A stretch of DNA of 60,220 bases from Thermotogae bacterium (GTDB taxonomy: Bacteria > Thermotogota > Thermotogae > Petrotogales > Petrotogaceae): positions 1 to 60,220 of the forward strand of contig JAKJGQ010000002.1 of assembly GCA_022704305.1 (NCBI GenBank), written 5' to 3'. The notes under the pieces are model-generated. The model had not been told where the DNA came from, did not search any database, and saw nothing but the letters and a program-made list of their open reading frames with translations. Shown here in pieces: positions 8,007 to 56,004 of the stretch. Both the position numbers and the translations under genes were made by a program. How positions within the stretch are numbered: the stretch's first letter is position 1; each line of letters starts with the position of its first letter.

Positions 8007-9614
8007 TTAATTCACCTCTCCAAGCTTAATAAGCTTATATGAATTAATATCATAAACGGTATCGCATAGACTTGTTATACGTTCATCATGAGAAATCAAA
8101 ATAATAGTTTTTTTAATGCTTTTCAAAAGATTAGCCAAATGTACAATACTTTCCTTATCGAGTCCGTTGGTAGGTTCATCAAGGATGAGTACAGAGGCAT
8201 GTCTGATAAGACCGGCTAAAAGATATATTTTTTTCCTTTCACCACCGGAAATATTGGAAAAGTTTTCTGCCTCAAGTACTTTTTCATTTATTTCAAAACG
8301 TTGCAAAATAACGTCTTCATCTTCTCGGATGCATTCACAGGCTTGTGCAATCATATTAAGAAGCTCTCCCGGAGGTATATTAAAGACAGGATCAGACTGT
8401 GCAATATATGTCACATGCTCATAGATTATTTCTTTAGGGACTGATCTTATATCTATACCATTAAACTTTACTGACCCAGTATAGTTCGTTTCCATTCCAA
8501 GCAGTATTTTTAATAAGGTAGATTTTCCCGTGCCATTCTTCCCGTTAATTCCTATAATCTTATTTTTGCAGATACTCATCTCTGCATTCCTAAAAACAAC
8601 ATTTTTCCCATAAGAAAATGAAAGGTCTTCTACCTCAAATATATCTGCATTTTCCTTGAGAGAAACGGTTTTTTCAATGCTCCCAGACGAGAGAACAGAT
8701 ACTCTTTCTCTGGCCTGCCTGAAAAGAAATATCTCAGAAAAGGCTTTGTATATACTGCCAGTACTCTGAAAAAAATTATTACTCAGAACAACTGTAATAA
8801 CGGCTTGTTCAATTGAAATATATTTTTGCAATGTGAAAATACCTATTATAGCGTAGCTTCCATATGTAAGCAAAGCATTTATAGAGTTATTTAGAGCTTC
8901 TTTTTGTCCAACCTTAATAAAATTTTTGCTGTATACCTCTACATTTTTTTGGTTAATAGAATTAAACTTATTTGCATACCAATTTTTTAAACCATTGACT
9001 TTTATACTGGCCAAGCCATTTTGTCCGGAGATGACAAAATTCATCCATTCTTCTCCGACCTCTGCAGCCTTTGTATATGACTGCTGTAAAAACTTTTTTA
9101 TGATATACGGTGGAATAAGTTGCGCAAATGAAATTCCAAGAAAAATTAAAGCCAGAAATTTATTGAATGAAGTTATAAAGAAAAAATATACAGCTCCCGA
9201 AACTATACCGGTTGAAATTGCTGGAAGTGTATCTGCGATAAAGCTCATGACTTTCTCCAGATCCTTTGAAAGTCTTTCTCGTATTTTACCTGGATCCATT
9301 TTTAGTAATTCTACAAGCTCTTGCTTAAACAAGAGCTTGTAGACCAAGATCCGAAAACCATTTTTATCCTTGAGTTCTTTTTGATTTTTAAAAATATCAA
9401 AAAAATAAAAAAATAGCTGAAATCCAATAATAAGTAGTATAAATGCAACTGACCTATTTGCAAGGCTTTTTATATCTTGTTTAACCGCACTTCCAATAAG
9501 CTTAGAAGAAAGATTGGCGCATGCAAGTGTAAAAATAAGTATTAAGAAGCCTTCAAAAGTTTTTAATACAGAACATACAAAAAGTTTTTCGTATGGCAGT
9601 TTGAATTTAGACAT
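8007..9614 (-). CDS. ABC exporter half-transporter (membrane + ATPase fusion), first subunit
   Basis: Partner of the adjacent half-transporter, 535 residues, with an exporter-type membrane region (about 10-310) and ATPase domain (about 325-535). It has Walker A GKNGTGKST, signature ISGGERKKI, Walker B SVLILDEPTNGLD and switch ILISHDER. Both subunits retain the Walker B glutamate, so neither site is obviously degenerate, unlike many heterodimeric exporters. The ATG follows a GGGGGAC ribosome site. The 193 bases upstream, shared with the divergent aminotransferase gene, are AT-rich and must hold both promoters. Confidence 0.9.
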   Translation of the reverse strand: MSKFKLPYEKLFVCSVLKTFEGFLILIFTLACANLSSKLIGSAVKQDIKSLANRSVAFILLIIGFQLFFYFFDIFKNQKELKDKNGFRILVYKLLFKQELVELLKMDPGKIRERLSKDLEKVMSFIADTLPAISTGIVSGAVYFFFITSFNKFLALIFLGISFAQLIPPYIIKKFLQQSYTKAAEVGEEWMNFVISGQNGLASIKVNGLKNWYANKFNSINQKNVEVYSKNFIKVGQKEALNNSINALLTYGSYAIIGIFTLQKYISIEQAVITVVLSNNFFQSTGSIYKAFSEIFLFRQARERVSVLSSGSIEKTVSLKENADIFEVEDLSFSYGKNVVFRNAEMSICKNKIIGINGKNGTGKSTLLKILLGMETNYTGSVKFNGIDIRSVPKEIIYEHVTYIAQSDPVFNIPPGELLNMIAQACECIREDEDVILQRFEINEKVLEAENFSNISGGERKKIYLLAGLIRHASVLILDEPTNGLDKESIVHLANLLKSIKKTIILISHDERITSLCDTVYDINSYKLIKLGEVN

Positions 9615-9807
9615 TTTTTGTCCCCCCAGAATTTTTATTTCCTGTAAAAAGCTTATGAAAGTTAAAAAAATATTTTTTAATAGTTTATAAATTAATACTA
9701 CTATTTTAATTTCTTTTTTGCAAACTGTTGATAGTGTTGTTTATTATATCCATATATAATGTTTTTGAGATATAATCTAATTAAATAGGATATATAGGGG
9801 GGAGATT

Positions 9808-10992
9808 ATGAAAAAATACAATTTTGAGGATATTCATGAAAGAAGAGGAACCCATAGCATAAAGTATGATTTTCTTAAAACTTTTTATACTAAAGAAGAT
9901 CTTTTATCCATGTGGGTTGCAGATATGGATTTCCAAACCGCTGACGAGATAATTGATACAGTTGTAAATGTTGCCAAAACTGGTATATATGGCTACTGCG
10001 GTATTGATGATGACTTTTATAACTCCATAATTCATTGGTTTTCAGAAAGACGTAACCTTGTGCTCGATAAAGAATGGATAATGTTTGTTCCTGGTATTGT
10101 TCCAGCTATTAGTATTTCACTTCTTGGCTTAACCGTACCTGGTGACAAGATCATTTTGCAGCCTCCAGTTTACTATCCTTTTTACTCATGCATTGAGAAT
10201 AACGGAAGAAGAGTAGTTTTTAATAATCTCATCAATGAAAATGGATACTATAAAATGGACTTTGAAGCTCTTGAAAGATCTATTGACGTTAATACCAGAG
10301 TTTTGATCTTATGTAATCCACATAATCCGGTTGGAAGAGTCTGGACAGAAAACGAACTGTCTATGCTTGGTGAGATCTGTAAAAAGAATGATCTTATAAT
10401 ATTTTCTGATGAGATTCACTCTGACTTGATCTATGAAAAAGATAAGTTTAAGTCTATTTTTAGTCTTAACGAAGATCTTCGTGAGCGAACAGTAACTTTT
10501 TTTGCTCCAAGCAAAACATTTAACCTTGCTGGCCTTTCAACTTCATTTATGGTTGTTCCTAACCGTTCTTTGAGAGGCAAGATGCAGTCCATCATGAACT
10601 CTCTTGCTCTTAACAATATAAATATGTTTGGATTAAATGCTCTTATTGCCGCCTACTCCCACGGAGGGGAATGGCTTGATCAGCTTTTAAACTATCTTAA
10701 GGGAAATATTGACTATGTACTTGATTTTTTTGAAAAAAAACTTCCTCAAGTAAAAATATTTAAACCTGAAGGAACTTATCTGTTATGGATGGACTTCAGA
10801 TTTTTGGGAATGAATGATGAGGAATTATCAAAGTTCTTTATTGAAAAAGCTGGAGTTGCTTTGGATGATGGGTATATTTTTGGAAAACCTGGAAGTGGAT
10901 TTCAAAGAATGAATATTGCATGTAGCAGAAAAATTATCTGTAAGGCATGCGATCAGATATATGAAGCGATAAAATTATTAGAAAACTGTTAA
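9808..10992 (+). CDS. MalY/PatB-type PLP-dependent C-S lyase (cystathionine beta-lyase-like aminotransferase)
   Basis: A fold type I PLP enzyme of 394 residues. The N-terminal sequence ending LLSMWVADMDF is the signature of the MalY/PatB subgroup, which cleaves cystathionine or cysteine conjugates. PPVYYPFY and CNPHNPVGRVW contact the cofactor. SDEIHSDL carries the PLP-nitrogen-binding aspartate, and APSKTFNLAGL carries the Schiff-base lysine. The GGGGGGAG ribosome site is strong. Cystathionine beta-lyase activity is the best guess, but MalY-like proteins can also be regulators. Upstream TATAAT boxes (9755-9760, 9771-9776) are candidates but lack a well-spaced -35. Confidence 0.88.
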   Translation: MKKYNFEDIHERRGTHSIKYDFLKTFYTKEDLLSMWVADMDFQTADEIIDTVVNVAKTGIYGYCGIDDDFYNSIIHWFSERRNLVLDKEWIMFVPGIVPAISISLLGLTVPGDKIILQPPVYYPFYSCIENNGRRVVFNNLINENGYYKMDFEALERSIDVNTRVLILCNPHNPVGRVWTENELSMLGEICKKNDLIIFSDEIHSDLIYEKDKFKSIFSLNEDLRERTVTFFAPSKTFNLAGLSTSFMVVPNRSLRGKMQSIMNSLALNNINMFGLNALIAAYSHGGEWLDQLLNYLKGNIDYVLDFFEKKLPQVKIFKPEGTYLLWMDFRFLGMNDEELSKFFIEKAGVALDDGYIFGKPGSGFQRMNIACSRKIICKACDQIYEAIKLLENC

Positions 10993-50222: not shown

Positions 50223-50269
50223 AATAACAACAAAAAACAGGCGTTAAGCCTGTTTTTTGTTGTTATTTT
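50221..50269. terminator. Bidirectional terminator between glnA and fliJ
   Basis: Perfect 22-bp arms (50221-50242 and 50248-50269; core AACAGGC) with loop GTTAA are rich in A on the left and T on the right. The right arm is also the coding sequence for the last residues of FliJ. Confidence 0.95.
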
Positions 50270-50720
50270 CATCAGAATTTGTTTTATTACGTAAAAATTT
50301 ATTCTGAGCTACTTCATCCATCTCTTTACTTTCAATCTTTCTCAGCTCAGTCATAAAATCATCATATTTTCTTTCTCTTAGCTTTTCAAGCACTTCCCTT
50401 TCATTCTTCTTTTTTAGATACTCTTGGCGCGCCACATTTTCTTCAGAAAGTTTTTTCTGAAGAAACTTTATCAAACGGATTCTTTCTTTTTTAAGAAACT
50501 CCCGATACTCTATAAGCTGCTGAAGTTTTTGGGGAGAAATTGTAAACTTAAGCTCATTATTAAATTCCCTTTCAAATTCACTTATCTTTAAATCAATCGT
50601 ATGAATTCTTTCTTCAACTTCCTGCCTTTCTTTTATCTTCTTTGAAAGCTCTTCCCTAGCTAGATCTTCAAATTTTTTTCTTAACTTCATTATTCTCTCA
50701 AGGCTGAAGTTAAACCTCAT
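50244..50720 (-). CDS. fliJ: Flagellar export protein FliJ
   Basis: A 158-residue, almost wholly coiled-coil protein. The N-terminal FNFSLERIMKLRKKFEDLAREEL and the C-terminal VLEKLRERKYDDFMTELRKIESKEMDEVAQNKF fit FliJ, the central stalk of the flagellar type III export ATPase that interacts with FlhA and FliI. No other flagellar gene is in the window. The start overlaps the end of the AAA+ regulator gene by four bases. The C-terminal Asn/Lys tail is encoded by the terminator arm. Confidence 0.85.
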   Translation of the reverse strand: MRFNFSLERIMKLRKKFEDLAREELSKKIKERQEVEERIHTIDLKISEFEREFNNELKFTISPQKLQQLIEYREFLKKERIRLIKFLQKKLSEENVARQEYLKKKNEREVLEKLRERKYDDFMTELRKIESKEMDEVAQNKFLRNKTNSDENNNKKQA

Positions 50721-52357
50721 GATTTTATACCATATCTGTCCAGCTTATAATAAAGGTTTCTCACTGTCAGACCGAGTCTTTTTGCCGCTTCTGTTTTGTT
50801 TCCGTGACAAACTTCAAGCATTTCTATTATAATTTTTTTCTCATATTCATCCAAAAGTTCTTTTATATTACCGGTACTGCGCTCATTGCTTTCGACAATA
50901 TCTGGTATATGTGCAGAGGTTATTATTCTGTCAGCAGGACCAAGATTAAGAATGGCTCGATCAATAAGATTTTCCAGTTCTCTAATATTACCTAGCCAGT
51001 TGTAGTTAAGAAGTTTGCTTAAAGAATCCTCAGTAAAATCATAAATTATCCTTCCGTACTTTTGATTCAATGCGTGAAGTATCTGTTTTGCAAGCGCCGG
51101 GATATCTTCTTTTCTTTCTCGTAAAGGCGGAATATTAATGGTCACCACAGAAATTTTATAATATATTTCAGAAGAAAACTTACCTATGCTTGAAAGAGTT
51201 TTAAGATCATCAGGACTTGAAAATATCAATCTCACATCCGGCTTATAGTCATAACATTGACTATCAAACTCATTATCCTTAAGGTATTTTAGAATCTTTG
51301 ACTGAACAAACGGAGTAGCTGACTGTATATTCTCAATAAACAAAGTTCCTCCATCTGCCTTTATAAAATAACTTCTTTCTCCGAAAAGAAATTCTTCTTG
51401 TTTATCAGGCATAACAAGACCAAGATTTATCTTTAAATATGGTTTTGAAGAACGTTCGCTTAAATTGTGAATGGCCTGTGCAAGAACTTCTTTTCCTACT
51501 CCGACCTCACCCTGTATTAAAATATTTACTTTTGTTTCTGCAGCTTTTTGAGATTGCTTGATGACATTTTGCATAGCAGAAGAAACCGCGACAATATCGT
51601 TGAACGTATGTCTAGCTTTTTCTTTTTTAAGAAGTCTTTTAGTAGCCTCCAACTCATTAAGCAGATTTTGAATTTCCGATATGTCGTGAATTACACCAAC
51701 ACTTCCCTTAAAATCATTTTTGACAAATATCGGTGTAACAGAAGCAATCACATCTTTTTTATTTTGACCAACCTGCATTTTTACATTCAAAATCGGTTTT
51801 TTTTCGCGTGCACATTTTATATGAAGACTCTCTCCCTCAGCAATATCTATTGTAGCAGGTTTACCTATTACTTCACGAGGAGTAAGTCCGGTTATCTTGG
51901 TATACGCTCTGTTAACCATGACAATACGCCCCTCTTCATCAGCCACAGATATAGCATCGGTTGTAGAATCAATAACCGATGTAAGCATCGCTTCTATCTC
52001 ACGAAGATTAGTTACTTCCTCAGCCAGCTTCTGTACTGTAGTAACATCTCTGAAAACAGCAACCGAAGCAACTATCTCATTTTCTTCATTTCTTATAGGA
52101 AATCTAGAAGTAATAATGACTTTATTTCCAAGATTTTGAAGACGGTCAAGCTCTGATACGCCTGTCCTTAAAATTACATGCAGCCGGGTATTAGGAATTG
52201 TATCCACAACATTTTTATATAAGACAGCATCTTTCTCTACTCCAAGAATACCGCAGGCTGAATTGTTGAAAAATATTATATCCTCTCTCTCATCAACTGC
52301 CAGTATACCCTCCTGAAGCTGATTAAGTATCTCTAAAACAAGTTGTTCTTTAGTCAA
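50717..52357 (-). CDS. PAS-PAS-AAA+-Fis regulator, TyrR-like, lacking GAFTGA
   Basis: A 546-residue regulator. Two PAS domains (about 1-110 and 120-235) contain GILAVDEREDIIFFNNSA and DAISVADEEGRIVMVNRAYTKITG. An AAA+ domain of the sigma-54-activator type (about 255-485) and a C-terminal Fis helix-turn-helix (EVCHGNKTEAAKRLGLTVRNLYYKL) follow. Walker A is GEVGVGKE. The stretch after FLFGE goes directly to RSYFIKADGGTLFIENI, so the GAFTGA loop that contacts sigma-54 is deleted, and the Walker B pair DE reads EN. It resembles TyrR, which acts with the housekeeping sigma factor. The start is TTG 52357 after GGGGTGA. It overlaps fliJ by four bases. Confidence 0.85.
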   Translation of the reverse strand: MTKEQLVLEILNQLQEGILAVDEREDIIFFNNSACGILGVEKDAVLYKNVVDTIPNTRLHVILRTGVSELDRLQNLGNKVIITSRFPIRNEENEIVASVAVFRDVTTVQKLAEEVTNLREIEAMLTSVIDSTTDAISVADEEGRIVMVNRAYTKITGLTPREVIGKPATIDIAEGESLHIKCAREKKPILNVKMQVGQNKKDVIASVTPIFVKNDFKGSVGVIHDISEIQNLLNELEATKRLLKKEKARHTFNDIVAVSSAMQNVIKQSQKAAETKVNILIQGEVGVGKEVLAQAIHNLSERSSKPYLKINLGLVMPDKQEEFLFGERSYFIKADGGTLFIENIQSATPFVQSKILKYLKDNEFDSQCYDYKPDVRLIFSSPDDLKTLSSIGKFSSEIYYKISVVTINIPPLRERKEDIPALAKQILHALNQKYGRIIYDFTEDSLSKLLNYNWLGNIRELENLIDRAILNLGPADRIITSAHIPDIVESNERSTGNIKELLDEYEKKIIIEMLEVCHGNKTEAAKRLGLTVRNLYYKLDRYGIKS

Positions 52358-52383: not shown

Positions 52384-53316
52384 TTAATCGTCTATTAGCT
52401 TATGTTCCTGTACCCAACCATTAATGAGTTCAAGCTCCTGCATCACATCTACTACAGCTTCATATTCACTTTTTTTGAGAAATCTGTCCATTTCTGGAAA
52501 ATTCTTTGTATGGTTTACAGGAACATATTGATCCATAAGACTAACAGCAATTCTATCTGAAAGGTCATACTTTATAAACTTAAGAGCCTGGATAGCCTGC
52601 TGGATGTTAGACGGCAGCACCAGTATTCTTAATATTATACCTCTTTTAAGAATATTTTCATTATCTAAAATAAAATCATTGCCTATCTGCCTGTACATTT
52701 CAAAAATAGCCTGTTCACATACAGTCCAGTAATCTTTTACTCCTGAATACTTTTTCCCGATAGCGTTGCTTGTATACCTTATATCTGCAAGATATATATC
52801 CACCACCCCATCAAGCAGTTTGAGCGTTTCAACACTTTCGTAAGATGAAGTATTCCATACAATAGGAAGTCTAAACCCTTTTTCTATTGCTATTATAAGA
52901 GCATCATATATAAACGGAAGATAAGCGGTCGCCGTTATAAGATCGAGATTTACTGCTTTTTTATTATTTTGTATCTCAAGAAAAATTTCTGAAAGCCCTT
53001 CTACTGTAATCTCTTTGCCAAATCCTTCTTGACTGAACTTAAAGTTTTGACAGTAAATACAGTTCATATTACAGTTGCTAAAAAAAATACCGCCTGCGCC
53101 GGTTTTACCGGTAAGAGGAGGTTCTTCCCCGGGATAAAGAACATACTCTGATATTCTAGTCATATCTCTTACTTTACAGTATCCTGGTTTTTCGGTTCTG
53201 TCAACCATACATCTGTGTGGACAAAGATCACAGCTCCTCAATTTCTTGTAAAGGAGCTCTTTTCTTCTTTTGAGCTCACCTGTTTTATAAAGATTTATAT
53301 AAGAAGGCTCATTCAC
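52384..53316 (-). CDS. PflA/PflX-like radical SAM protein
   Basis: A 310-residue radical SAM protein of the pyruvate formate-lyase-activating-like PflX group. An N-terminal cysteine cluster (CDLCPHRC, then GYCKV) precedes the SAM cluster motif FSNCNMNCIYCQN (near residues 80-92). PIVWNTSSYESVE and VDIYLADIRYTSN are conserved in the group. The physiological substrate is unknown for most members, and no glycyl-radical enzyme is nearby. It overlaps rnc by eight bases. Confidence 0.88.
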   Translation of the reverse strand: MNEPSYINLYKTGELKRRKELLYKKLRSCDLCPHRCMVDRTEKPGYCKVRDMTRISEYVLYPGEEPPLTGKTGAGGIFFSNCNMNCIYCQNFKFSQEGFGKEITVEGLSEIFLEIQNNKKAVNLDLITATAYLPFIYDALIIAIEKGFRLPIVWNTSSYESVETLKLLDGVVDIYLADIRYTSNAIGKKYSGVKDYWTVCEQAIFEMYRQIGNDFILDNENILKRGIILRILVLPSNIQQAIQALKFIKYDLSDRIAVSLMDQYVPVNHTKNFPEMDRFLKKSEYEAVVDVMQELELINGWVQEHKLIDD

Positions 53317-54034
53317 TTTTTAACTCCTCTGTAAGAATTTTTTGGCATGCTTGTTTTGCTGCAAGCTGCTCTGCAATTTTTTTTGACTGGCCATTTCCTG
53401 TACCACAGCTTAAACCGTTTATTCTTACTTCTATTGTGTAAAGTCTTGTATGGTCGGGACCGTTAGAATCAATCAGCACATATTCGGGAAGCACCTTATA
53501 CTTTTCTTGGGTAATCTCCTGAAGCTTGGTTTTATAATCTAAAAACAGTACACCATTTATAGCCTCTTTTACATAAAAATCTATATACTTTAAGATAAAT
53601 GATTTTGCATACTCATAACCCAATGACAAATAAATTGCAGCAATTAATGCTTCAGTTGTATCAGCAAGTATGGAAGATTTCATCCTGCCGCCGTACTTTT
53701 CCTCACCAGAACCTAAAAAGATATACTTTTCCACACCTATTTCTTTGGCTACTTCAGACAGCACAACCTCACTCGCAACTGTTGCCCTGATTTTTGACAT
53801 ATCTCCTTCTGAAAGTTTATACTCAAGATAAAGATACTCCGAAAGAACCAGCTCAAGAACAGCATCTCCCAGAAATTCTAGTCTTTCATTAGAAGAAATA
53901 TGCCTATCTTTATTACTTTTTTCAAAAACATAAGATGTATGGCATAAGGAGTTAAATATAAGCTGTTCATTAATCCCCTGAGGAAGATTAAACTCTTTAA
54001 TTGCGTTTTCTATAACTTTTTTTTCATTAAACAT
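53309..54034 (-). CDS. rnc: Ribonuclease III
   Basis: Cleaves double-stranded RNA in rRNA and mRNA processing. The 241-residue protein has the signature ERLEFLGDAVLELVLSEYLY with the catalytic acidic residues, a second acidic site in ADTTEALIAAIYLSLGY, and a C-terminal dsRNA-binding domain ending SKKIAEQLAAKQACQKIL. GGAGAAG precedes the ATG. It lies between the ricT-like and PflX-like genes in the housekeeping run. Confidence 0.95.
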   Translation of the reverse strand: MFNEKKVIENAIKEFNLPQGINEQLIFNSLCHTSYVFEKSNKDRHISSNERLEFLGDAVLELVLSEYLYLEYKLSEGDMSKIRATVASEVVLSEVAKEIGVEKYIFLGSGEEKYGGRMKSSILADTTEALIAAIYLSLGYEYAKSFILKYIDFYVKEAINGVLFLDYKTKLQEITQEKYKVLPEYVLIDSNGPDHTRLYTIEVRINGLSCGTGNGQSKKIAEQLAAKQACQKILTEELKSE

Positions 54035-54053
54035 GTCTTCTCCTTTGTACTGA

Positions 54054-54977
54054 CTACTTTCCGTTCGTTATATCTTCTGAGTCTTCTTCATAGAAAGCTT
54101 GTTCCTTGTTCTTCCCTCTGAATGACTCTTTCTCTGTTTCAAAAGTAATAAAACTATTATTTTTAAAAAAGTCAAATGGTACTTTAATAAGAATGGGCTG
54201 ATTCTCCTCAATGGTCTGTAAAGTTACTTCTTTCAAAAAAACATTAACAGTTATTACCCTAGCCGGTTTTCCGTCATACTCTATGGTTGTGTTCTCATAA
54301 GGAACACCCTGCATTACTTCTTCGTAAAACTGATTTTCATATTTGAGACAACAAAGGAGCTTTCCGCATCTTCCAGAAATTTTAGCTGTATTTATCATCA
54401 TTTGTTGAGTTTTTGCTAATTCCATTTTTATTGAATCAAACTCCCTTAAAAATCTACAGCAGCATGAAACCTGTCCACACAGTCCTAGAGAGCCTTTTAT
54501 TTTGACTTCGTCACGGATACCAACTTGTCTCAGTTCAATCCTGACTCTGTACTTTTTTGCAAGTTCTTTTACCAGCTCACGAAAATCAACTCTGGAGTCA
54601 GCTCCAAAATAGATTACTAGCCTTGACTTATCGAAAGTATACTTCGATTTAAGACATCTCATCTTCAGATTAAGCTCTTTTACTTTTTCTTTGGTATATT
54701 CCGTCACTTCACATGCTTCACATAGTGCTTTGTTATACTCTACCATATCTTCTGACGTAAGTCTGCGTATTATAGTTGTAGGTTCGTATCCAATTTGATC
54801 AAAGCTCATCTCTCTAGGACCAAAAACAACTTTTCCGATATCTTCTCCAAGTTCTGTATTTATTATAACAAGATCACCTTTTTTTATTTCTTCTTGATCT
54901 CCAATATAAGAAAAATAGTATATTTTCTCTAACTCCATCTGTTCTATACCATAAACATTTGCTGTCATTTCAAGCAT
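54054..54977 (-). CDS. ricT: PSP1-domain protein (RicT/YaaT)
   Basis: A 307-residue PSP1 protein. Bacillus RicT (YaaT) works in the Y-complex that controls RNase Y and sporulation-related phosphorylation and can carry an Fe-S cluster. The cysteine-rich core LGLCGQVSCCCRFLREF and ISGRCGKLLCCLKYENQFYEEVM is diagnostic. The C-terminal tail after about residue 270 is polar and charged. AAGGAGGAT precedes the ATG. The order yaaR-holB-ricT is the same as in Bacillus. Confidence 0.92.
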   Translation of the reverse strand: MLEMTANVYGIEQMELEKIYYFSYIGDQEEIKKGDLVIINTELGEDIGKVVFGPREMSFDQIGYEPTTIIRRLTSEDMVEYNKALCEACEVTEYTKEKVKELNLKMRCLKSKYTFDKSRLVIYFGADSRVDFRELVKELAKKYRVRIELRQVGIRDEVKIKGSLGLCGQVSCCCRFLREFDSIKMELAKTQQMMINTAKISGRCGKLLCCLKYENQFYEEVMQGVPYENTTIEYDGKPARVITVNVFLKEVTLQTIEENQPILIKVPFDFFKNNSFITFETEKESFRGKNKEQAFYEEDSEDITNGK

Positions 54978-54990
54978 TCTATTATCCTCC

Positions 54991-56004
54991 TTATTTCAAA
55001 AGAAAAAAACATTCAGCTATCCTGAAAAAATGTGAAAATACTTCAAGTTCAAAATTAAATTTAGATACTGTTGCAGCGCTTAACACCTCAAAATGCCTTA
55101 TTGTGTCGTAAATAATATTGCTGTTAAAATTAAGATTCTGTGTTCCGAAAAAAATAGCTGCCCCGGAGTTATCCATATACTTCCATCTGGTTCCAAGCTT
55201 ACAGACAAATGCATCATGAAGAAAAGAAATACCGTTTTTGGATAGGTACTTAAGAAATTCAAGCGGATCTACAGTCTCTTTTACACGACCAACACTTGCA
55301 ACAGTATTAAAAAAATTCTTTTCATTCATTGCAGAAATAACTGTCAAAAACCGGAAGTATGAAAAAATGAATCCTAATCGCTCCGGCACCGTACTTAAGC
55401 CTACAGAAAGACTATCTATAAGAAAGTCTATATCGGTAGTATCAAAATAATTTTTTGCAGTTTCAACTATACTTTCTTTATCAGATTCCAGAAGATATCT
55501 AATTATTTCATAATCAGAGTTTATAACCGGAGCAATCAAATTAAGATTTTCCTTAAATCTTTCTGATAACTCCTTCCTCATTTCCATGGGAAAAGGAATA
55601 TTTATCTTTAAAAATCTGCTTTTTACTGTGGAAAGAAGAGAGTTCCATCTGGTTGTAAAAGCTATTATAATCATAAAATCGGGAGGCTCTTCAAGAATCT
55701 TCAGAAAAGCATTGATTGCTTCGACTGTCATAGTCTCTATATCATTTATTATAACAACTTTTTTATCAGAATAAACCGGACGACAAAGACTAAACTCCTT
55801 TATTTCACGTACAGAGTCAATTTTTATATTTCCTTTATCAGGCTTAATTGTCATTACTTCATAAGGACTTAGTCCCTCTGTTCTTTTAGAAATTTCTACT
55901 GCAACATGCTTGTTAAGAGTACCGTCAAAAGAAACCATACACAAGGAACATCCTTTATATGAGTTCATGTTAATAATGATTTTTTCTAACCATTCTTCAA
56001 ACAT
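54991..56004 (-). CDS. holB: DNA polymerase III delta-prime-like clamp-loader subunit
   Basis: A 337-residue AAA+ clamp-loader protein. The segment VVIINDIETMTVEAINAFLKILEEPP and the sensor-like STVKSRFLKINIP (SRC equivalent) match HolB. The P-loop region reads SFDGTLNKHVA and lacks GxxxxGK[ST], as expected since delta-prime does not hydrolyse ATP. The zinc-binding cysteines of E. coli delta-prime are not obvious. The C-terminal half is poorly conserved. It sits between yaaR and ricT, a position conserved in several phyla. Confidence 0.85.
   Translation of the reverse strand: MFEEWLEKIIINMNSYKGCSLCMVSFDGTLNKHVAVEISKRTEGLSPYEVMTIKPDKGNIKIDSVREIKEFSLCRPVYSDKKVVIINDIETMTVEAINAFLKILEEPPDFMIIIAFTTRWNSLLSTVKSRFLKINIPFPMEMRKELSERFKENLNLIAPVINSDYEIIRYLLESDKESIVETAKNYFDTTDIDFLIDSLSVGLSTVPERLGFIFSYFRFLTVISAMNEKNFFNTVASVGRVKETVDPLEFLKYLSKNGISFLHDAFVCKLGTRWKYMDNSGAAIFFGTQNLNFNSNIIYDTIRHFEVLSAATVSKFNFELEVFSHFFRIAECFFLLK

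Follow-up and report, generated by a model that had tools for sequence, protein, structure and literature searches.

The window analyzed here, a stretch of 60,220 nucleotides from a Thermotogae bacterium of the family Petrotogaceae, contains the gene of a regulator that is real, conserved and uncoupled from sigma-54, and what stands out is that its orthologs, some coupled and some uncoupled, form a series across the phylum. Judged by its sequence, the protein probably represents, in the Petrotogaceae, an ancient enhancer-binding protein of the Thermotogota with the layout PAS-PAS-AAA+-Fis, which formerly served as an activator of sigma-54 RNA polymerase. The best reading, in which we place good confidence, is that of a DNA-binding regulator that binds ATP without hydrolysing it, acts at main-sigma promoters and is cut loose from sigma-54. 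In this lineage, neither sigma-54 nor the loop by which the regulator would contact it has been retained. As the protein is nevertheless strongly conserved, it most likely now controls ordinary promoters.

Until now, sigma-54-uncoupled regulators were known as individual cases. The ortholog family described here covers coupled and uncoupled forms across a phylum, with three separate loop losses, and usually represents the sole activator retained in genomes after the loss of sigma-54. It can serve as a natural experiment on the loss of a sigma factor and on the role of the activator left behind. In the literature searched, no report on this ortholog family or on the loss of sigma-54 inside the Thermotogota was found. 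As a caution, loop-less proteins should not be annotated as sigma-54 activators.

The regulator gene and its AAA+ domain

The gene was confirmed as an ORF of 546 amino acids at positions 50717–52357 of the reverse strand, on which all features of the window described below are also located. It starts with a TTG codon at 52357, preceded by the Shine-Dalgarno sequence GGGGTG, and ends with a stop codon at 50717–50719. The Pfam search resulted in the domain order PAS-PAS-AAA+-lid-Fis helix-turn-helix and thus recovered the two PAS domains and the Fis helix-turn-helix of the initial annotation. PAS1 (residues 9–106; 52040–52333) resembles the cytoplasmic PAS of CitA-type kinases and matches the structure of the CitA cytoplasmic PAS, which suggests a role in signal transmission, and PAS2 (residues 125–226; 51680–51985) is the domain most conserved within the family. 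They are followed by the AAA+ sigma-54 interaction domain (PF00158, Sigma54_activat; residues 256–407; 51137–51592), detected with 101 bits against a cut-off of 20.2, the AAA+ lid domain (AAA_lid_14; residues 413–496; 50870–51121), in which the sensor II Arg is kept, and the Fis-type helix-turn-helix (HTH_8; residues 502–542; 50732–50854). Residues 255–470 match the solved VpsR structure; an AlphaFold2 model calculated from a three-row alignment has a mean pLDDT of 41.6, too low for interpretation.

Within the AAA+ domain, FLFG joins ERSYFIKADGGTLFIEN directly, and the L1 loop with the GAFTGA motif is absent at the FG-ERSYF junction (residues 325–331; 51365–51385), as the initial annotation had noticed. 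Compared with the Kosmotoga-type ortholog (G021; 49% identity over the full length), the gap amounts to 13 residues including GAFTGA. The Walker B motif (GTLFIEN, residues 337–343; 51329–51349) reads FIEN, in agreement with the change from DE to EN described there, and the Walker A motif GEVGVGKE (residues 283–290; 51488–51511) is intact. Two changes had been overlooked, namely the shortened L2/pre-sensor-I region, in which two further residues are missing between residues 365 and 366 (51260–51265) relative to the G021 protein, and the lost Arg finger, at whose position Lys401 (51155–51157) is found.

All 21 Petrotogaceae orthologs share the loop deletion and the replacement of the catalytic Walker B Glu by Asn, and since the same changes recur throughout the family, they can be taken as neither chance nor sequencing errors. 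The Arg finger is likewise replaced by Lys in 21/21, whereas the Gly and the Lys of Walker A, the switch Asn and the sensor II Arg are retained in 21/21. The two usual Arg finger positions were assigned after PspF; the 51 orthologs that retain the loop all have Leu or Ile at the first of these, which is for this reason not part of the change.

From these sequence motifs we infer that ATP binding is retained, and the pattern of the Rhodobacter capsulatus NtrC, i.e., ATP binding without hydrolysis, fits best because Walker A is kept and the catalytic Glu is replaced. The retained Walker A and sensor II would also suit an AAA+ domain that still has some other mode of ATP hydrolysis and acts as a remodeller of an alternative partner, e.g., a repressor or a different polymerase, and the uncoupled orthologs of families f9 (g29 and g30, eight genomes) and f6 (three genomes) have kept the Walker B DE in 11/11 and the Arg finger in 10/11 cases. 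Within the Petrotogaceae, however, both replacements, Asn for Glu and Lys for Arg, are fixed in 21/21, and such a remodelling activity is improbable.

Orthologs, loop state and sigma-54 in the Thermotogota

A search with the whole protein in 103 Thermotogota genomes revealed 84 genomes with a match at E ≤ 1e-40. G026 was left out due to a partial match at the paralog level, and the orthologs of the remaining 83 genomes, one per genome, were aligned, among them the partial rows of G001 and G002, both close to a contig end, and that of G040, whose frame is broken before the helix-turn-helix. A single starred branch (support 97) separates the 83 orthologs from 21 other PF00158 proteins in a tree that was calculated by a fast method from the AAA+ to helix-turn-helix part only and contains some long branches. 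The same domain set was found in 5/5 orthologs checked. The regulator frame is unbroken in 20 of the 21 Petrotogaceae genomes; in G040 (L100, 2941–4604) it is divided into 471 and 96 amino acids in different frames, by either a frameshift or an assembly error.

For the detection of rpoN, a profile was built from nine Thermotogota RpoN proteins. It resulted in a strong match (E ≤ 7e-17) in 62 of the 103 genomes, in weak fragment matches only (E 5e-6 to 1e-3) in 24 further genomes and in none in 17, and a search with the Pfam RpoN DNA-binding domain agrees with this in outline. The assumption of the initial annotation that Thermotogota lack RpoN thus fails for the phylum, which corrects a belief about these bacteria, and holds for the window genome and its relatives outside Marinitoga. 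The passages available from Francke et al. (2011; PMC3162934) already report sigma-54 for a part of the Thermotogae and describe activators with defective loops in two genomes without sigma-54. Within the Petrotogaceae, rpoN is present only in eight members, i.e., seven Marinitoga and G053. With the Pfam and the Thermotogota profile, no rpoN was found in the window genome (80% complete), the genome check proposed by the initial annotation, and no convincing match was obtained in its genus mate G054 (94% complete). All eleven other Petrotogaceae outside Marinitoga (g5) and G053, which are at 99% completeness, gave weak fragment matches only.

The incompleteness of the window genome and the retention of rpoN in its Marinitoga relatives leave room for a divergent, undetected rpoN through which sigma-54 activation continues. 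The agreement of the 11 nearly complete relatives under both profiles speaks against it, as does the statement, in the sections seen of PMC3162934, that changes of GAFTGA mostly abolish sigma-54 activation, and we regard this explanation as hardly credible.

The sigma-54 proteins of families f8 and f9 are very short (L103, L104 and the rpoN matches of G056–G072, G074–G076 and G085), with open frames of about 300–335 amino acids and a reduced core-binding region, and the genomes that encode them often have a single activator. Furthermore, an activator of 642 amino acids with an intact GAFTGA was found in G086:C127 (L256; f10, no clear rpoN); in the other f10 genomes activator matches are absent or weaker, and contamination of the assembly is possible.

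The 83 genomes with the ortholog comprise 57 with rpoN, of which 49 have an intact loop, and 26 in which no rpoN was found, of which 24 have lost it. The two exceptions with an intact loop, G003 (71% complete) and G102 (82%), are incomplete assemblies in which rpoN may have been missed; the eight genomes with rpoN and a lost loop are the seven Marinitoga and G053. On a tree computed with the loop region left out, three loop changes are needed, located on the Petrotogaceae stem (21 genomes), in f6 (3) and in g29 and g30 of f9 (8), and the starred branches force at least two. We take f9 to be the Fervidobacteriaceae, with g29 and g30 being presumably Thermosipho-like. In the lineages with loop loss, sigma-54 is absent in some or all members, and G085, the sister of g29 and g30, retains both loop and rpoN. 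The form of decay differs, with a clean deletion in the Petrotogaceae (f1), GAFLGA or GAFFGA in g30, DAFMGT, GTFIGT, a PFLD-like sequence or a deletion in g29, and a scrambled or deleted loop in f6.

The association of loop and rpoN in the two-by-two counts is mostly shared descent. A paired sign test on the tree gave two pairs in the same and none in the opposite direction (p 0.5), which is not significant because only two pairs are informative. The loss of rpoN by itself does not account for loop loss either, since eight genomes with rpoN lack the loop as well. By parsimony, uncoupling in the Petrotogaceae would have preceded the loss of sigma-54, as every one of the 21 members, the eight with rpoN included, is without the loop. 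In this family, the loop loss goes together with the shortened L2 region and the Walker B and Arg finger replacements. The paralogous activators examined in the rpoN-containing Marinitoga and G053 carry G[AS]FTGA in 10/10 cases.

A single PF00158 protein (E ≤ 1e-25) was detected in 19/19 sigma-54-less genomes of f1 (g2, g3, g4, g6, g7) and f9 (g29, g30); in these 19 genomes the ortholog appears to be the sole activator retained after sigma-54 was lost. At the same threshold, two such proteins each are present in G000, which also shows weaker PF00158 matches, and in G054, and f6 comprises one genome with one and two genomes with two. A tentative scenario, which we consider possible and rather less than probable, starts from a bifunctional ancestor that served sigma-54 as well as main-sigma promoters. 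In the Petrotogaceae its second job would have prevailed, and loop and hydrolysis would have been discarded before sigma-54, freeing the latter to be lost. If true, the regulon transferred to the main sigma factor could be read from a comparison between orthologs whose sole difference is their coupling.

Located near a contig end of G000 (C182, L257; 10732–13803, reverse strand) is a frame of 1023 amino acids with Rpb2 domain 6 and Rpb1 domains 2 (NADFDGD) and 5, i.e., a putative fused beta/beta'-like accessory polymerase. It is adjoined by genes for a protein of 282 amino acids (9909–10757, reverse strand) and a sigma-54-activator-like AAA+ protein (8581–9912, reverse strand) with GAYTDA and no helix-turn-helix found, and a Cas6 gene lies beyond; rpoN was not detected in this genome. 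Such an accessory polymerase, if paired with an AAA+ partner of its own, deserves a separate look.

Selection, neighbouring genes and promoters

Seven Petrotogaceae (f1) pairs were analyzed with our own simple counting script for dN/dS, which ranged from 0.024 to 0.072 for the whole protein and from 0 to 0.03 for the helix-turn-helix and PAS2; the values point to strong purifying selection on the regulator. With the loop left out, four coupled groups had mean divergence ratios of AAA+ to helix-turn-helix of 0.29, 0.46, 0.43 and 0.53, and five uncoupled groups had ratios of 2.66, 1.84, 2.02, 1.13 and 1.07. The AAA+ domain is thus more conserved than the helix-turn-helix in coupled lineages, whereas this order is reversed in uncoupled ones, and selection appears to have shifted away from the AAA+ engine, towards the parts responsible for DNA binding and sensing. 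A faster AAA+ domain, together with the missing active-site residues and sigma-54 loop, would also be expected of a decaying remnant that became functionless once sigma-54 was lost. Given the low dN/dS of the whole protein and of its helix-turn-helix and PAS2, the nearly always unbroken frame and the fixed Asn, Lys and Walker A Lys, such a remnant is very improbable.

In the window, fliJ (50244–50720) overlaps the stop codon of the regulator gene by ATGA. A radical SAM gene (52384–53316), PflX-like by eye and linked to the regulator in the family, lies directly upstream, followed further upstream in the same apparent operon by genes for RNase III, PSP1 and a DNA polymerase III delta'-like protein (53309–56004). 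The gene fliJ directly follows the regulator gene in all 21 Petrotogaceae loci, at a distance of between -4 and +33 bases wherever the regulator frame is unbroken (20 loci), and a first scan placed the radical SAM gene ahead of the regulator in 19 of them. In the other two loci it is located further upstream (G049) or in one frame with the regulator (G041). The latter, from Marinitoga lauensis (L008, 5017–7650; L025, 1501–4134), comprises 878 amino acids and may be a genuine fusion or result from a sequencing indel.

For the 62 other orthologs, flanks of about 1.5–3 kb, in some cases shorter, were searched, and neither fliJ nor the radical SAM gene was present in them. The link to fliJ noted in the initial annotation is therefore a trait of the Petrotogaceae, not of the orthologs in general, and as such says little about the ancestral function. 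Outside the Petrotogaceae no common neighbour was found; the adjoining genes, housekeeping genes by eye, differ between families, so the neighbourhood gives no shared target. A recruitment of the regulator to flagellar genes in the Petrotogaceae, reflected in the cluster of radical SAM, regulator and fliJ, would suit the position of fliJ directly after the regulator gene in all 21 loci. However, housekeeping genes (RNase III, polymerase subunit) belong to the cluster in the window as well, the arrangement is missing near the 62 other orthologs, and fliJ need not be a target because it shares an operon with the regulator; we consider a flagellar regulator unlikely.

To find genes activated by the ancestral protein, genomes with a single activator were searched for the sigma-54 promoter patterns TGGCAC-N5-TTGCW (25 genomes, 30 loci read) and TTGGCA-N6-TTGC (23 genomes, 70 loci read). 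Among the loci read, no clean intergenic match ahead of a gene was found in the rpoN-containing f8 and f9 genomes, and with the second pattern no match with a convincing target in Marinitoga G039, in G053 and in G021. In the f7 control G008, this pattern gave two clear intergenic matches among seven loci read; matches of the TTGGCACG type there precede small genes by 26 and 39 bases (L281, L287). One intergenic match each was also obtained in genomes without rpoN, with TTGGCA-N6-TTGC in G046 and with TGGCAC-N5-TTGCW in G081. The negative result is weak, since the promoters of these genomes may differ from the consensus.

Proposed mode of action and comparison with known regulators

Under the preferred reading, the regulator would bind ATP without productive hydrolysis, and the nucleotide would stabilise the oligomer. 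PAS2 may sense a small intracellular signal, with PAS1 as transmitter, and the helix-turn-helix would bind operators near main-sigma promoters, where the protein may repress or recruit polymerase directly, like TyrR, HupR and VpsR.

Among these, HupR is a response regulator with a receiver domain, and VpsR has a receiver-type N-terminus, c-di-GMP as ligand and no PAS. As far as described in the parts seen of PMC3162934 and PMC10274813, GAFTGA-less activators act at sigma-70 promoters. Their use of ATP differs, since in the available text of PMC10274813 the R. capsulatus NtrC needs binding and not hydrolysis, VpsR (printed there as VspR) has no need for ATP and the Caulobacter NtrC seems to need hydrolysis. 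The window regulator resembles the NtrC of R. capsulatus and Caulobacter and HupR in the deleted or defective L1 loop, which in these proteins goes along with sigma-70 promoters according to the same two excerpts. It differs from NtrC, described there as a response regulator with a receiver domain, in having two PAS domains and no receiver. With VpsR of Vibrio cholerae it shares the enhancer-binding fold and a defective GAFTGA, VpsR being active at sigma-70 promoters (PMC3162934, PMC10274813, sections seen).

The AAA+ enhancer-binding fold, the Fis-type helix-turn-helix and the defective GAFTGA are also common to TyrR of E. coli and DhaR, which are sigma-70 dependent according to the text seen of PMC3162934. 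The regulator reached 180 bits with the NCBIfam model of TyrR (cut-off 576) and 231 bits with that of DhaR (cut-off 551). Unlike TyrR, which has an ACT domain in the part of PMC6375630 available, it shows no ACT family among its Pfam matches. The initial description as TyrR-like therefore suits the way of working and not the family membership.

The best NCBIfam match is PrdR with 277 bits, below the cut-off of 795, and the PAS/AAA+/Fis layout is shared with PrdR and other PAS-type activators of the Clostridia. In the passages seen of PMC6615313, these are sigma-54 dependent with TTGGCAT-N5-TTGCT promoters, and many Clostridia activators, including PrdR, are predicted to bind TGT-N10-12-ACA. 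Of the features of a sigma-54-dependent activator, PF00158 is present in the window regulator, and GAFTGA, the Walker B DE and Arg finger and a genomic sigma-54 are absent. By its AAA+ domain, helix-turn-helix and lost L1 loop, the predicted protein fits the GAFTGA-less enhancer-binding proteins.
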